From Periconia sp. R9002 (lineage: Eukaryota > Ascomycota > Dothideomycetes > Pleosporales > Periconiaceae): DNA of 64,000 bases. The position numbers and the translations under genes were made by a program. The notes under the pieces are model-generated. The model made no database searches. It saw only the letters and a program-made list of their open reading frames with translations, and was not told the DNA's origin. Positions 30,967-63,553 of this stretch are shown here, one piece after another; the stretch's first letter is position 1; the number at the start of each line of letters is the position of its first letter. The stretch covers positions 1 through 64,000 of the forward strand of contig JAMAHW010000085.1 in assembly GCA_023627715.1 (NCBI GenBank), in the 5' to 3' direction.

Positions 30967-31248
30967 AACAATCATACTGTTGAGCATAATTTCTCTTATT
31001 CTTCTCACTTCTGTAGATGTTTTGATAGGCGGTAGGATTGTAGTAAGTGTGTAACGTAGCAATGCTGTATTATTCTATAGATGGACGTTTGAAATGATAC
31101 TATTGTATTGCTTACTTACTACATAGGATGGGGCCCTACTCTAATTATATGATATAGAAATATTAATACGTTTGTATTGAAAAACTATATACATTCTGGT
31201 GCCGTTTTTGTGACTCAACAAACGAAAGGACAGACTTAAAGTGCGCCA

Positions 31249-33800
31249 CTGAAAGAGCAGAGGTTTTATACCACCGCTTTGCACAGAGTGGAGTCTGAAA
31301 CCATCCATGAAGATGGCATCACTGTGGTTTTTGCACTGAACATGCTCCATCCGACCTTGAGGCCAGTCATCGATGGACACCAGGGTAACCGAGCGAGTCT
31401 CTGCCCTAGTACACTGTATGGCGACATGGCATCGAGCGCCTCTGCCTACCTCTACTATCGTATCTCTCCTGGCTCTGATATACCGGTAATGGATGTAGTG
31501 GGAATGGAGGTAACCCAACCTTTCGTCGCTGATCCAACAGGGACAGAGCAATATCGTAATGTCACCGCGTACAAGGAGTCTGACTCGGATAGCATTCATA
31601 TCAAATACACGTCCGTGTCAGGAGGCAATACTACTGATCACGCTACCTCCACAGTAACATACGGCGATGGCAAGCAGTGGTTGACCGACTGGCAAAGGCA
31701 GACATATCTTTCAGACAGTCGTATCGAAAGACTAAAGCATGGTGAAGATTCTGTTACTCACAAGATACATTGGAAAATGATTTACAAGCTCTTCGCCTCT
31801 CTAGTCACTTCTAGTGAGCGCTATTAACGCAATAGGAAAGTCTATCTCAACAGTGACGCATCTGAAGCTGAGGGAGATGTTGAACTTCCTTTCAGACCCT
31901 CTCAAGATGAGTTTTACTTCAACCCATACTGGATTGGTAGTCTCATACAACGTTGTGGGTTTGACCTGAACGGGAGCAATAACACCGCCGAAGACTCGGT
32001 GTATATCACTCATGGCTGGAAAGCTTGCGTTTACCCAAGAAGTTACAAGAAGGTCAAGTTTACCAAACTTACGTTAGGATGCAACCACTTGGATCTGATC
32101 ACGTCTTGGCCGGGAAGTATACATCAGAGATAATTATTCCGTCGTTAGCCTATGTACAGGCTTGAAGTTTCAGAAGATCAAGAAATCTATACTGAATCAT
32201 CTCCTACCAAACCGCACCTCAACTACTGTACCAGTGGATTTTCCGACCAAGCGTTCCAAATCTAAGAGCCGTGTCCGCCCGCAGTCATCTTCTGCATCCC
32301 GGGAAACCTAACAAAACGGGCATTTTATAAAAGTTGTTTCGGTGATTGCCCAAGAAGCTAGATTGGCTCAATCAGATCTTGGGAAGAACGTTGAGTTCAT
32401 TGAGATCGGCATTGACTCACTCCTCAGCCTTTCGAACACCGCCAAACTTCAAGAAGTAACCGGTCTCGAAATACCTTCTTCGTTTTTCCTTCCGTATCCA
32501 GGCGTCCGAAATGAACGGCCTTTTTTTTTTGCAAGAGAAGAGGGCAGATTCTTTCTCTACTGGATCAACATCGGATAGTTCCGACTCTGAACTTCCAGGA
32601 ATACAATTTATTGCTAGCGCTGAGACATCAGCAGAGAGCCTGGTGGTGGTCGATCCTTTTTGAAGAAAGTGATATCAGATAAGCTTGGAGTGGCAGAGTC
32701 TGAGATAGAATCCAAAACCAATTTCGCTGATCTAGGCATTGACTAGCTCATGAGCCTCCCTATCTCAATCGAGTTCAAAGTCTCAAGAGCCTTAGTCTTG
32801 AACTAGACTTTTTCCTCCATCATCTAACGTTCGGTGACGTTCAGAGAGCATATGGGGCTGACCTCTCTCACGTTAACACTGGGGACGTGGGCAATCTCGA
32901 ACGGATAAAAGGCATCTAGAAGTCGCACAGAAGATATGCCACTTCTCCTGGTTCGCGCGAAAACTTGGGAGTCCACCGGGCCGCGTGAACCCTTTCATTG
33001 GGCAGCGTTGCCAACAAGTGTACTTCCATACTTCTCCAAGGCAGTACGGATTGCACGGCTCGATTATTCTTATTCCCCGATGGCTCCGGATCATCGGTTA
33101 AGTATGCGCAACTACCGCCATTAGCCGATGGTGTTGCTGTCTACGGACTGAACAGCCCCTACCTAAATAACCCCACACCATTTACCGACTCTGTTGAAAG
33201 CGTTTCCTCGCTCTACGTTGCAGAAATACGGCTTAGACATCTTGATGGTCCATACATATTGGGAGGATGGCCAATACGAGGTGTTCATGCATATGGGGCA
33301 GCGCGGCAGCTTGTCTTAGCAGGGTAGGAGGCCTTGGCAATCCTAACAATTGATTCACCGTGTCTGAAGAGACTGCCACCGATGTCGGAAGTAACTGTCG
33401 ATCTACTTACCCGATAACAAGTATTCGGAAGTCAGGAACCAATACCACCGACAGTATGTCTTCTACCACTAATTTATTTATGTCTTAGTACCATTTTCGC
33501 TCGTGTAGGTTCAGCAGCATTTCTTTGGTAGCGTGCGGTCGCTTCGAGAGTATTCGCCACAGCATATGCCCAAAAAGAACTTAAAATACTCTGCATTGCA
33601 ATTTGGGCGCGTAATGGCGTATTCCAGTATGATTTCGAGAAGATTTTGCTCGGAGGCATCGCACCCGACGCGGTTAACGAGTGGTTGCTCTTTCCACGGA
33701 AAGACTACGTATCTAATAGTTAGGACGAGCTACTACCGAACTACAGATCGCTTGCGATGGATGGCAATCATTTCTTTGTGAATGAAAGAGCTACAGGTAA
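31249..33800 (+). pseudogene. 3' half of a dead non-reducing polyketide synthase (PT-ACP-ACP-TE)
   Basis: Domains appear in PKS order across shifting frames. Product template: TTALHRVESETIHEDG, LCPSTLYGDMASSASAYLYY, VMDVVGMEVTQPF, GDGKQWLTDWQRQTYL, then an in-frame TAA at 31825 before KVYLNSDASEAEG, and NPYWIGSL, where the catalytic Asp of the usual W-x-DSL is Gly. ACP1: KNVEFIEIGIDSLLSLS, attachment Ser intact near 32417. ACP2: VAESEIESKTNFADLGID, but the attachment Ser codon is TAG at 32744. Thioesterase: FLFPDGSGSS, YAQLPPLADGVAVYGLNSPY, and GGWPIRG, where the nucleophile Ser of GxSxG is Pro (33271); the end (FFGSVRSLREYS, DGNHFFVNER) is in other frames. SAT, KS and AT domains are missing. 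The layout matches PKSs for naphthopyrone/melanin-type polyketides. Confidence 0.85.
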
Positions 33801-34501: not shown

Positions 34502-34953
34502 TCACTCTTCTTCTCCAGGGTTAAAGATTTCCGCACCCCCAGCCCCAGTATACTCCACTATATGGGAATCAGTATTTAATCAAGATATGGGATTATCTGC
34601 AGTAAGTACTCACCATGAGGAGTTCAGTCTCGGGCTTCAACAACTCCAGGATTGAGGATGTTCACGCCGCCAGCCCCAGTATACTCGACTGTATCGGAAT
34701 CAGTATATAATACATATGTGGGGTCATCTGCAGCAAGTAATCACCATGGGGAGTTGAGTCTCGGGCTTCAACAACTCCAGGATTGAGGATGTTCACGCCG
34801 CCAGCCCCAGTATATTCCACTGTATCGGAATCAGTGTCTAATAAATATGTGGGATTATCTGAAGTAAGTACTCACCATGGGGAGTTGAGTCTCGAGTTTC
34901 AACCACTCCAGGATTGAGGATGTTCACGCCGCCAGCCCCAGTATATTCCACCA
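34502..34953 (-). repeat. Tandem exon-intron array, unit 131 bp, four repeat exons
   Basis: On the minus strand, repeat exons of 78, 75 and 75 nt plus a shortened last exon of 56 nt are separated by three introns of exactly 56 nt each (34820-34875, 34689-34744, 34558-34613). Unit length is 131 bp. Every exon is bounded by phase-1 introns, so units can be added or lost without changing frame. The two central units are the most alike. Confidence 0.85.
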
Positions 34954-35109
34954 CTGTCTCAGTATCAGTCTTCGTGGATCCTTGACAATTCCCTTAGGCA
35001 ACAAACACTTACCGGGTTGAGAGGCTTGATTAGCCGCAACTGGTGCGGCTGCAGTTTGGGCAGCGTAAAGCCATGCCACACTAACAAAAAGAGATAGGAC
35101 TCTGACCAT
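34624..35109 (-). CDS. Secreted repeat-peptide precursor, candidate RiPP (dikaritin-like) precursor
   Basis: The ATG at 35109 opens a signal peptide (MVRVLSLFVSVAWLYAAQTA, cleavage probably near AAA-PV). Exon 1 (35013-35109) ends after NQASQP; a 59-nt GTAAGT..CAG intron leads to repeat exons 34876-34953, 34745-34819 and 34614-34688. Each encodes a copy starting VEYTGAGGVNILNPG, continuing GVVE(T/A)RD and ending DSTPH in copies 1 and 2. In copy 3 the Ser codon of that end is TGA (34624-34626), so the product stops at 104 residues. An unused fourth exon (34502-34557) would encode VEYTGAGGAEIFNPGEEE plus a stop. The plan (signal peptide plus near-identical Tyr-containing repeats, beside a UstYa gene) is that of dikaritin RiPP precursors. 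Unlike UstA or GigA there are no KR sites between repeats. A RiPP role is inference. Confidence 0.7.
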
Positions 35110-36527
35110 GGTGAAAGTAAAGATTCGCTGAAGAGAGGTGATCCAAGGGGGCAGGCAGTGATGAGAATAAAGATGCAGTTCAATTCTCTTGGGCAGACAG
35201 CATTGATTTGGGAGATTCGAAGTAGTATAAATACCTCGCTCAAGGGCTGAATAAGAATGATCAAAGACTGTGCGACTGCAGGAGTGAGAGGGTCGTGCCG
35301 TGTGTGTCTCAGCCAACTAGTCTGAAGTAAGCAATCTGCAAGCTTCGTCACCAATAGACTTCTCCGCCATCATCCTAGGCAGGTCACGGAGTGTGTACAG
35401 GTTTGATGAAACTCTCGCTTGCACTTCCAGTTTCCGGTTTTTGCACACCACTCAGCGTTCATCCCACGCTCACTCCGGTCTCGCTTCGTAGAGGCCTTTA
35501 CTCAGACTATTCTAGCTTCACCAGGTAGTTTGACAGGCTCACGCGTTTCCACAACCGCACTAAAGCATACACGGCTGACAAAAACTACTCTCATCTAGGG
35601 ATACATTTTGTTAGGTGGGACAAGGGTGAGCGTTGGGATGAAAAATTGCAGCTTGCAAAAAACGGCAACCGAAAATGCAAGCGAGTGTATATCATGTAGT
35701 AAAGGAAGTAGCAACCAATTCACCATCCGCCCAGCGTCCAGAGGTAAAACAATTAGCATTTTCAAGTATCTGTGACAATATACTTCTCCGCCGCCGCGCC
35801 AGTCGAGTTATTGAGTGGTAGTAGTAGTAGTGTAAAATTACCGTCCTATCAGAGCACTGTTCAACCGAATAGGTAAAAATTGGATTGCTTATCACTGTCA
35901 AGCACTAAAAATTGAGTTGTTTTCTGCCGTACCCCGGACCGTACGCCGTGCCACACATTAGTTGCAGAATTCTAGCGCTATGTACCTGAACGGACCACCC
36001 GAGCTGAATGTCGCATAAGCATCAGCGAATCAGAAGGCTAAGATTCCAAGCTGCCAAGACCCCATCGTCAGGATCAGTCTACCCTCAAACCCTCACGGTC
36101 CGATTCATCTATCAAAAGTCATGCTAGCATTGCTACTACAGTCAGCTTGCTTCGTAACCTTTAGTCAGATTGGCCACTTGTGAGTATGAACTTCGGGCCA
36201 CCAAACTGAATTGGGACATTCAGCTACGTAGCAATAGGCGCAGAGCGACTGTTCAGCGTGGTACGGGCAGCCGAATCTCCAGCTCTTATCTTGCTCGGGC
36301 CTGTATTAGCTGTCAGATTCCACGAATCGTGTACGGGGGCTTGTCGGGGTTGGAAACAGTTCGGGGAATAACAAACTGATACAATGTTGGATCATTATTT
36401 AGCAAACGCGAAAGATCAACTGGGCAGAGTCTACGAGGATTTCGCGAAAACTCTTCACATTTCATCCGTCTCACCAGAGTTCCTCACGCCTTCCTCTAAG
36501 CATCTGCGCTCATCTTGAATCATAGAA
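35110..36527. other. Shared divergent promoter of peptide gene and UstYa gene
   Basis: 1.4 kb between two divergent genes. A TATA-like element (TATTTATA read on the minus strand) at 35226-35233 lies 117 bp before the peptide start. A (gta) run at 35818-35831 is present. I see no third gene. A shared promoter would fit co-expression. Confidence 0.45.
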
Positions 36528-37491
36528 ATGTTCACCTCTATGACCCGCTCTTATCAGCAGGTCAGCAAAGGAGAGAATATTGAAGGAGAAGATGAGTTCT
36601 ACTTCGGCAAACATACTGTTACACTGTCGCAGCAAATACAACAATGGAGAGTCTTATTTTGTTTATCATTTGTCAATGTTATCCTATTTCTATCTACTTT
36701 TGCATTATGGAGATCGATATTCTCTCACAGGAGCTATTCACCCCATGAGCTTTCTGCGTATTGTAAGTCCGAACAATCCAGACTTCGTACAGGCCTTAGA
36801 CTGATTCATCCTCAAGCTCCCTTACTCGGCAAGATACCGGTGCGCGACGATAAAATAAATGGTACCTTTTGGCCTCAAAACCCGCCTTCCGTATTCCAGC
36901 AACCTCCAAGCCCTGCTGTGGATGCCGCTTGGAAGCGCGTAGGAAACCTCTTTCCCATACCAATCAACGCTTCCGACATCATGAAGAGCGGCAAAAATCC
37001 GGAGGAGTGCTTTATATATCCTCCCGAGTTAGTTGGTGGCCAGAGCGATGTTTATCAAGGAATGGTAGACGTCTTTCACCAGATCCATTGCTTAGATATG
37101 TTTCGTAGGCAATTCTGGAGTGATTACTATGGTGATCTGCGTAAATCGTTAGTATACTTGCATACAAGTTCCCTAAGAAGTGGACTGACTGTCACATAGA
37201 CCCAACGGAACCCTTTTTACAGTCGAGGCTCATATGCTTCACTGCCAGTATCTACTTCTGCAGACGCTCATGTGTCATGCTGACTTAGAGCTGATTACAT
37301 TCAATAAGGTTGAGGGGGTGTTTGGACCATTTGCAGACTTTAGTGTACAGAAAAAATGTCGGGACTTTGAGAGCCTACTCGAGTGGCAAGAGGCGAACCA
37401 GATTCTTATACCTGATAGTATGCGAGAGGAGACAAGTCCAGGTATCAAAGAGTTGCCGGCAATTGGTAACAGTCTGCCGTTTCCAGGTTAA
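36528..37491 (+). CDS. UstYa-family (DUF3328) oxidase-like protein, 293 aa
   Basis: Two exons: 36528-37140 and 37223-37491. The donor GTAAAT and acceptor TTTACAG give 882 coding bases in frame; the donor choice is the less certain part. A cytosolic N-terminus is followed by one membrane segment (LFCLSFVNVILFLSTFALW), then a lumenal domain. Both HxxHC motifs that define the family are present: VFHQIHCLDMFRR and EAHMLHCQYLLLQTLMCHAD. UstYa-type proteins act on RiPP precursors (oxidative Tyr cyclisation in ustiloxin, phomopsin, asperipin and victorin-type pathways) and on some non-ribosomal products, and bind copper through these His residues in studied members. It is intact and divergent from the repeat-peptide gene 1.4 kb away, the obvious partner. 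Confidence 0.85.
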
Positions 37492-38639
37492 CTTGTGCTT
37501 TTATTTTCGTAGTTGTATTTTAAGCTAGCTGAAAGAATACATTATGGAAAGTGTTTAGGAGACGCATTTAAGAATCATGGTGAATATTATGAGTCGGCTA
37601 TTGCCTGGATAACGTTAATTCAAGGACGCCAAAGTTCGGGACACCTGAGGGGAGCGATGTAGATTTACTAGATTCACCCTCACCTCAACGGACGCAAGAG
37701 CAAAGGTAGCAAAGAGGGAAGAAGCGAGGTAGAAAAAGTGAGAGTTCTAGTCCTTTCACAAGGAAAATTTATCTTATGCAGCGACAATTGGATAATCTTA
37801 TTGAAGAACGTGCTTCAGGCAATCTACGCCAGCTATATGGTCTGATTTGTCTGTTTCTATCTGCGCATTATTGAAGGGGAAAGATTCTAGATAGATAGGT
37901 CTCTAATACAGGCGGATTAAGCTGTAGACGTAGACGTAGGCAGTGTAAGTGACAGGGATATTAGCATAGAGAGTTAGGGTAACATTAGTGAAATAGAAGG
38001 TAGTGTTAATAGTAATAGCGAAATTATAGTACTGCAGCGACAGCCGCGTAGAGATGTACTAGCTAATAAAATAAAACACGCCCGTAAGCTATTTACGTAG
38101 AAGGATAATTAGAAGGCGCTAGTAATATAGCTATAGCTTTCGCTAGGTAGTAGTACTAGAGCTATACCTTGCTAACTTTATTTATTCTTATAGGCTTTAG
38201 CAGTAATAAGTTTTTAATTAAGGTAGTTTAATATCTTACTATACTAGGTATTAACACTTAGACAAAATACTTATACACTATAAAGAAGTTCTTATATATC
38301 TACTAGCGTAGTGTACTGCGTTTAAGTACTAGCAGCTAAAAAGATTTTACCTACTGCTAAGCGCAATAAATAGACGGAAGAAGACTGTAAGGTATTTTTA
38401 TAAATATATAAGAAGTATCTAGCAGACGGCTTATATAGTCTAATAAGTATAATGCTAAGTGTACTTACGTACAGTAAACACGCAGCGCTAAAAGAAGGAA
38501 ATACTAGTAACGTGTATTAGTCGCCTAACAAGATAATCTTTTATCTTAGCGGCTAGCTAATCGTGATGGAGCGTAGTGTGCTGGGTAGTGGCTTGTATGA
38601 CTACATCTGGAGTAACAAGCAAGGGGTGTGGAATACTGA
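37492..38639. mobile_element. AT-rich, RIP-like degraded transposon block
   Basis: From about 37880 to 38560 the sequence is rich in TpA steps and stop codons in all frames (tagtaatatagctatagc and similar). This is the look of repeat-induced point mutation on an old transposon. The start (37640-37880) keeps some coding-like text (SDVDLLDSPSPQRTQEQ and IYLMQRQLDNLIEERASG) that I cannot assign. No terminal repeats are visible. Confidence 0.5.
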
Positions 38640-62646: not shown

Positions 62647-63553
62647 TTCTCCTATCAGTTGAGCTGGTAGTGCGTGTACAAACTGCCACCGGAAAGGGGA
62701 GGGATGGTGTAGTTATTCTATCTCTGGAGGTGGTAGATAGGCCTAGCTTTATAGCACTGTTGCGGTTTCGTTTGATGTCCACACGTGTCTCTATCAGACA
62801 GGCTTAGGTAAAATGGTGTGTAAAAGTTTACACAAGGTTGAGAAGCCTAGCATTAAGGTGGGCTCAATATTAAAAGCAAGTCGCCCCTCTAGACGGGGGG
62901 TGAGCAGAGGCAACGCTGCCATGAATTAGTGGGTCCGTGCTGCGGCACAGAGCTTGGCTCCCTGTAGGTCTAGCGTCACTACAAAGAGTACTGGATCGCA
63001 TGATTGGCGAGAGTTTACAGGGTTTCACCCAAAAGCCACGGCACAGCAACGCTAAGGGTCGTTTAAAATCCGGTGAAGAACCACTGGGGTGTTGGGGTGC
63101 GGTCTGCCAAGAGAGACAATTCACTGAATTGATGTGTCCAGACTTTGCGAGCTACTTGATGAGTCCGACTGTTTCGAGGCAGAGGTTAGGATTTCCTCTA
63201 GTCTAGCCATGATCCAAGCGTCACATGTAGGTCGCCTCTGGCTTCGCATACTATGGGGAAGATTGTATATTCGATTGATTAAACGAGTGTGTTCCATATC
63301 ATCTCTGCCATCGAAACGCAACTAGCAAAGAACATAAACAACGAGTGTGTTCCATATCGTCCCTGCCGTCAAAACAAAACGAGTAAAACAAATAACAAAA
63401 CGAGTGTGTTCCATATCGTCCCTGCCGTCAAAACAAAACGAGTGTGTTCCATATCATTCCTGCCAACGAAACGAAACGGGTAAACCAAATGACAAGACAC
63501 ATCCTCCCTACTCTAGCTTGCCGAAGTATTGACTGTTCGTGCCGTCGTCGACA
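62647..63553. other. Intergenic with tandem repeat
   Basis: A GC-richer stretch at 62880-63110 gives overlapping frames on both strands with no known product. A tandem repeat lies at 63282-63470. Confidence 0.4.
63282..63470 (+). repeat. Four copies of a 38-59 bp repeat
   Basis: Copies start at 63282, 63340, 63399 and 63437, each with aacgagtgtgttccatatc followed by a variable cctgcc-containing tail. Frames through the array repeat CSISSLP/PVKTK-type peptides, but no gene is supported. Confidence 0.75.

Follow-up and report, generated by a model that had tools for sequence, protein, structure and literature searches.

Contig C85 of the Periconia sp. R9002 assembly (42.9 Mb in 267 contigs) contains within its first 64 kb, hereafter the window, which are fungal in gene content and introns, a repeat-peptide gene and a divergent, intact gene of the UstYa/DUF3328 family, which likely form a dikaritin-like locus for a ribosomally synthesized and post-translationally modified peptide (RiPP). 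As far as can be judged from the sequence, the precursor would be secreted, released by kexin at a single arginine per repeat and modified in its core by the UstYa protein. The locus is probably functional, and its distal repeats are perhaps being lost. What is new and most useful here is the monobasic site, which is common to unrelated UstYa-linked precursors in one genome.

The precursor gene (35109–34502, minus strand, ATG at 35109) is modelled with five exons. Exon 1 (35013–35109) contains the start codon and a putative signal peptide (MVRVLSLFVSVAWLYAAQTAAA|APVAANQASQP), whose n-, h- and c-regions were recognized by eye only. In each of exons 2–5 there is a single copy of a 25-residue unit, a full repeat exon comprising 75 nt: repeat 1, VVEYTGAGGVNILNPGVVETRDSTPH, is encoded by exon 2 (34876–34953), repeat 2, VEYTGAGGVNILNPGVVEARDSTPH, by exon 3 (34745–34819), and repeat 3, VEYTGAGGVNILNPGVVEARD, by exon 4 (34614–34688). 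In the latter, an in-frame TGA (34626–34624) follows “...VVEARD”, behind a complete core; hence three repeats are translated, and the predicted precursor has 104 amino acids. Exon 5 (34502–34557), with a divergent repeat 4, VEYTGAGGAEIFNPGEEE, and then its own stop, lies beyond the exon 4 stop and outside the predicted reading frame. The four introns (59 nt, GTAAGT...ACTGAT...CAG, 34954–35012; and three of 56 nt, 34820–34875, 34689–34744, and 34558–34613, the last one past the exon 4 stop) all have GT...AG ends, phase 1 and, by eye, an ACTGAT branch motif close upstream of the acceptor; intron 3 has a weak donor (GTGATT). Tandem Repeats Finder places the array at 34539–34951, with period 131, 3.2 copies and 90% matches. 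The conserved core of the units is VEYTGAGG..I.NPG, with a lone Tyr per unit and the Ile kept in all four. Thus, an earlier note on this DNA, which had described a near-identical peptide in each exon, was right about one unit per repeat exon, but the frame stops in exon 4 with three units translated.

Similarity of the copies is by itself weak proof of coding, since tandem copies are alike by descent. We therefore rely on how the copies differ. In repeat exons 2–4, seven out of 75 sites are variable, compared to 13 out of 56 in introns 2–4 (Fisher p = 0.048), and pairwise differences amount to 14/225 in exons vs. 27/168 in introns (p = 0.002, the pairs not being independent). Four out of six variable codons in exons 2–4 are synonymous (naive chance 0.04, assuming 25% synonymous; small numbers), and so are all three codons altered within VEYTGAGG between exons 4 and 5 (naive chance 0.016 under the same 25% assumption; again small numbers). 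As, in addition, all four introns restore a single frame, the data favour a coding gene with the conserved core VEYTGAGG..I.NPG, and the repeat exons show signs of purifying selection.

The start codons of the two genes are 1,418 nt apart, separated by a putative shared promoter region (35110–36527). The UstYa gene (36528–37491, plus strand) encodes 303 amino acids once a 52-nt intron (37148–37199, GTTAGT...CATAG) is removed. Both exons match PF11807: exon 1 (36528–37147, 2.1e-25) contains a hydrophobic segment, interpreted as a transmembrane helix, and the motif HQIHC (37077–37091), and exon 2 (37200–37491, 4e-19), the motif HMLHC (37231–37245). This agrees with the earlier report of a divergent gene with both HxxHC motifs 1.4 kb away. 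When the protein is aligned with 14 relatives chosen from 120 listed, both motifs keep their H, H, and C without exception. Among the matches listed, the closest relative shows 67% identity over 65% of the query, and the best organism-labelled one, from Trichodelitschia bisporula, 47% over 68% (in both cases, the query had a one-residue slip). PMC12435403 describes DUF3328 proteins as enzymes with binuclear copper, and PMC12048977 treats a UstYa protein with two HxxHC motifs as defining the dikaritin-type class. A recent UstYa duplication was rejected: the printed aligned pieces of the other UstYa regions fetched are approximately 22–45% identical. The intergenic region also contains an inverted repeat (35411–35688, 35-nt arms with 208 nt between); a mobile element was rejected as its source, the surrounding 301-base stretch matching only itself in the genome. 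On the other side of the UstYa gene lies an AT-rich stretch (38001–38500, 33% GC), perhaps repeat DNA affected by repeat-induced point mutation.

If expressed and spliced as predicted, the precursor would enter the secretory pathway through the putative signal peptide, and a resident Golgi kexin (Kex2/KexB type) would cleave every repeat behind its only Arg, at V-E-(A/T)-R|D. The released units would be DSTPHVEYTGAGGVNILNPGVVE(A/T)R, the first one retaining the N-terminal stretch behind the signal peptide, and their ends would be trimmed by exopeptidases. The membrane-bound UstYa oxidase, which by analogy with CctR would contain binuclear copper, may then modify the core around VEYTGAGG..I.NPG. 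Most likely, the only Tyr of the unit, on which a UstYa oxidase would plausibly act, would be cross-linked oxidatively; the bond of ustiloxin and phomopsin is described as joining Tyr and Ile (PMC7329392).

The proposed release depends on the cleavage site. The predicted precursor contains no KR, RR or KK, and each translated unit has a single Arg: VETR|DS in repeat 1 (Arg codon at 34892–34894), VEAR|DS in repeat 2 (34761–34763), and VEAR|D in repeat 3 (34630–34632), the putative kexin-site stretches being ...NPGVVEARDSTPHVEY... and ...VETRDST.... The absence of KR between repeats and the single Arg before Asp had been noticed earlier, and a different protease or site was then considered necessary for processing; this latter claim is not supported, as the single Arg fits the extended Kex2 motif (PMC8528282) and the site recurs in another precursor of the genome (L041, see below). 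According to PMC8528282, Kex2 sites have Arg at P1, preferably Lys at P2, followed by Arg, Thr, Pro, Glu, and Ile, and Leu or another aliphatic residue at P4; that study also searched for LxxR, an expanded form of the motif, and Kex2 cleaved some effectors with non-canonical sites in vitro. Acidic and small residues are reported to be over-represented at P1′ and P2′ (PMC2515848). Hence the window sites conform at P4 (Val) and P1′ (Asp) and, where P2 is Thr, at P2 also. Since V-E-A/T-R|D fits, no other protease is needed, and on the simplest reading a monobasic site recognized by an ordinary kexin could be enough. In the genome, the P domain of proprotein convertases (PF01483) has a single match, on contig C29.

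The association of UstYa genes with repeat precursors was assessed throughout the genome, where 61 UstYa matches were grouped by eye into 34 regions. We read 32 of them, namely, the window, 20 regions at approximately 10 kb, nine at 5 kb and two at 2.5 kb, three with extra flank, leaving out those on contigs C4 and C9. A scan for 5-residue words occurring at least three times flagged nine out of 31 fetched regions. One of these, L031, was removed, as it shows, in the stretch seen, one 1.8-kb open frame at the locus edge, and L034, below the scan threshold, was added after reading by eye. Thus, repeat precursors are present in nine out of 31 other UstYa regions, and in ten out of 32 with the window, so the pairing recurs in this genome, in line with the dikaritin-style pairing proposed in the earlier note. 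In the control, limited to the other 54 kb of the window, one out of seven slices (1 to 10 kb) was flagged, at 63.3 kb. Tandem repeats of 59 and 38 nt occupy window positions 63281–63478, and the repeat array flagged by the scan overlaps the 59-nt one. Similar associations are known: in the Umemura survey, DUF3328 genes are on average 3.09 genes away from repeat-precursor genes (PMC7329392), and in Venturia inaequalis nine dikaritin clusters have been identified through the same pairing (PMC9632046). Tandem repeats of at least 10 amino acids near a UstYa gene, in the wording of PMC9632046, are what the window precursor shows. Hence the claim of a new RiPP family went too far, as UstYa-linked repeat precursors with very diverse cores have already been described (PMC7329392, PMC9632046).

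The precursors differ widely in sequence, namely, YDITYIDKR (L012), AYPESYKR (L015), NIYPGVKYPGDAD..KR (L018), TEFAPWYRG/ATNILPN..KR (L029), NWYxDS..KR (L034), and DAPWYRDS..EKR (L035). Further ones are AHIYYADV (L014), VGLDDGHYGK (L036/L042), and DPHHKGRKNNRR (L040/L041). The motif [LIV]-E-[AT]-R|[DE] of the three window sites is found at 12 sites of the L041 precursor (VEAR|D, IEAR|D, LEAR|D, LETR|D, and VEAR|E, in a listing restricted to single Arg following Ala or Thr). L036 has LNTR|V at four sites and LNSR|V ahead of the first unit, with no dibasic site, and L014 has LSIR|G, AQVR|G, PERR|G, and one KR. As a background, P4 is L, I, V, A or P for 67 out of 206 non-dibasic Arg (33%) in 15 window frames. 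We discarded an estimate of how likely an aliphatic P4 in four out of four precursors would be by chance, because the sites had been picked post hoc and the L041 listing was filtered. We tentatively propose, with somewhat less than an even chance of being right, that the genome holds a subclass of UstYa-linked RiPP precursors in which monobasic [L/I/V]-x-[A/T]-R replaces KR as the kexin cleavage site, common to unrelated precursors and missed by dibasic-based surveys, and that the window locus yields a new family of cross-linked peptides around EYTGAGG..I.NPG.

Two of these regions deserve separate mention. In L041 (contig C65, 400–1700), there are many DPHHKGRKNNRR units without Tyr, with spacers like EVEVEAR and EEEDDSEHDLEAR; di-histidine repeats near DUF3328 are listed by Umemura (PMC7329392). 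L042 (contig C91, approximately 290–700) has five VGLDDGHYGK units with only L-N-[ST]-R and no dibasic site in the repeats, and is a second KR-less case.

One repeat per exon is also seen, by eye, in L029 (about five units) and L014 (three units), i.e., in three out of ten precursors of the genome with the window included; in L040/L041, introns separate the first units only. The gigA gene of epichloecyclin producers likewise has introns between repeats. The one-repeat-per-exon layout and the missing KR are separate traits, since L029 is split by exon yet has KR sites. Homology of the window repeat with that of L029 (NIL..., period approximately 130 nt) is not claimed, as the intron positions in the unit differ and the match is short. 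In L029 (2300–3000, minus strand), the last core is broken by an in-frame stop (by eye), resembling the window's stop before the last unit. The literature searched by listing yielded neither a statement on non-canonical Kex2 sites in fungal RiPPs nor a printed description of one-repeat-per-exon precursors, and we do not claim that these have not been described.

Several observations weigh against a dikaritin-like locus. At the level of the precursor, the dibasic site, the usual criterion of such surveys, is absent; Ala at P2 in two out of three sites is outside the five best alternatives of PMC8528282; and the L041 units also hold KGR|K (without an aliphatic P4) and RR sites, so that cleavage may not take place at their single Arg. 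The tests for selection involve small numbers and partly dependent comparisons, and downstream of VEYTGAGG six out of eight codons altered between exons 4 and 5 are non-synonymous. The pairing has no counterpart in 22 out of the 32 UstYa regions read, which lack a repeat precursor. The repeat is without support from outside the locus, as no precursor relative was found: among annotated proteins, which do not cover the unannotated DNA of other fungi, the 104-aa query produced no matches at E ≤ 10 among four candidates, and a 219-aa query with more repeats, none among at least 1000 candidates; no further copy was found in the genome. This weighs little against a RiPP, because the cores of the class are described as very diverse (PMC7329392). 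For YTGAGG or NILNPG, literature listings pointed to nothing on fungal peptides, many titles suggesting primer matches, and the earlier remark that the core is unlike known ones stands, with no match in any search run.

The neighbourhood adds to these objections. Ustiloxin-type chemistry is incomplete at the locus, because contig C85 has no tyrosinase match and one DUF3328 gene only. No Pfam family of peptidases or methyltransferases is above the cut-off in 29 window frames and the precursor (shorter frames being excluded). The combination of tyrosinase, methyltransferase, several DUF3328 genes, and a transporter or peptidase, given as the Ding criteria in PMC12048977, where working clusters can lack at least one of them, is not found at the locus. 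The Pfam-matched neighbours are a cytochrome P450 fragment (25 kb), a tannase (40.3–41.8 kb), a major facilitator superfamily transporter (47.8–49.7 kb, 10 kb from the locus), and a membrane-bound O-acyltransferase (MBOAT) protein (56–57 kb), none of which clearly belongs to the RiPP locus. A thioesterase fragment (32989–33327, plus strand, PF00975, 2e-9) and a weak dehydratase-like match (31240–31827, plus strand, E 0.014, below the cut-off) are perhaps remains of a decayed polyketide synthase; as they adjoin the precursor gene, the UstYa protein might once have served another pathway. Finally, the stop in exon 4 and the weak intron 3 donor could mark decay.

These last features, along with the adjoining fragments, the AT-rich stretch at 38.0–38.5 kb, and the mostly non-synonymous exon 5 changes after the core, would suit a formerly working RiPP pair that is now losing its precursor. 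We regard such a relic as unlikely: the UstYa gene is intact across both exons, three complete cores lie upstream of the stop, most of the variable codons in exons 2–4 are synonymous, and the last core could still be released, because the cleavage site proposed for it precedes the stop. The recent relic suggested in the earlier note thus keeps some support from the distal stop and the weak donor, against three complete cores and an intact oxidase.

Less probable still is that the two genes are chance neighbours, the repeat gene encoding a secreted structural or surface protein unrelated to a UstYa enzyme that belongs, or belonged, to a polyketide or non-ribosomal pathway. DUF3328 enzymes do act outside RiPPs, e.g., CctR on cyclochlorotine (PMC12435403), remains resembling a polyketide synthase adjoin the precursor gene, and KR sites are absent; however, the pairing recurs in ten out of 32 UstYa regions (by the window-only control given above), the [LIV]E[AT]R|[DE] site is common with an unrelated UstYa-linked precursor, and the units are short, 25 amino acids, with one Tyr each. 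A non-coding minisatellite with an incidental open frame, suggested by a 131-nt tandem array whose period is no multiple of three, is very improbable given GT–AG introns of like length and phase with a branch motif that bring back one frame, the fewer, largely synonymous changes in exons, and a leader with a plausible signal peptide.

The dikaritin-like locus can be compared with other Kex2-dependent and UstYa-linked systems. Kex2-processed pro-domain (K2PP) effectors, such as SnTox3 and SIX1/4/6, are likewise Kex2 substrates, with canonical or non-canonical sites (expanded motif LxxR), but they have an N-terminal pro-domain, and by their description they lack repeats and UstYa (PMC8528282). 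Epichloecyclins have a repeat precursor as well, GigA, which is likely Kex2-processed and gives a Tyr–Ile cross-link (PMC9233826); their class and core differ from those of the window. Kex2-processed repeat proteins (KEPs) share the secreted repeat precursor (PMC7329392, PMC6339444), and 22% of KEP genes are reported with a DUF3328 gene nearby (PMC7329392). However, published surveys require KR, RR or KK between repeats (PMC6339444) or putative kexin sites (PMC9632046), and the dibasic pairs demanded by the KEP pipeline (PMC6339444) are absent from the window precursor. Should cleavage of UstYa-linked precursors also take place at monobasic V/L-x-A/T-R, then the class is undercounted by surveys demanding dibasic sites, and overlooked precursors may lie near orphan UstYa genes. 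A rule applicable to existing genomes would be to look beside UstYa genes for repeats with a single Arg and an aliphatic P4, allowing an exon per repeat.

Within the same genome, L014 and L029 resemble the window in one repeat per exon, L040/L041 in the [LIV]E[AT]R|[DE] sites, and L036 in the lack of dibasic sites in the repeats. Unlike the window, L029 has KR, L014 combines single-Arg sites with a KR and an RR, and L040/L041 also have RR, and the cores of all these precursors (AHIYYADV, TEFAPWYRG, DPHHKGRKNN, VGLDDGHYGK) are unrelated to that of the window. Compared to known dikaritins, the window differs in the missing dibasic kexin sites, one repeat per exon, the absence of a tyrosinase match on contig C85, and a core unlike YAIG, YVIG, and YVIP printed in PMC7329392; the cross-link described for victorin does not involve Tyr. 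At the same time, the locus has one UstYa gene, as described for asperipin-2a (PMC7329392), and is similar to ustiloxin, phomopsin, asperipin-2a, and victorin systems in the putative signal peptide, the tandem cores, the adjacent UstYa with two HxxHC motifs, and a Tyr per repeat.

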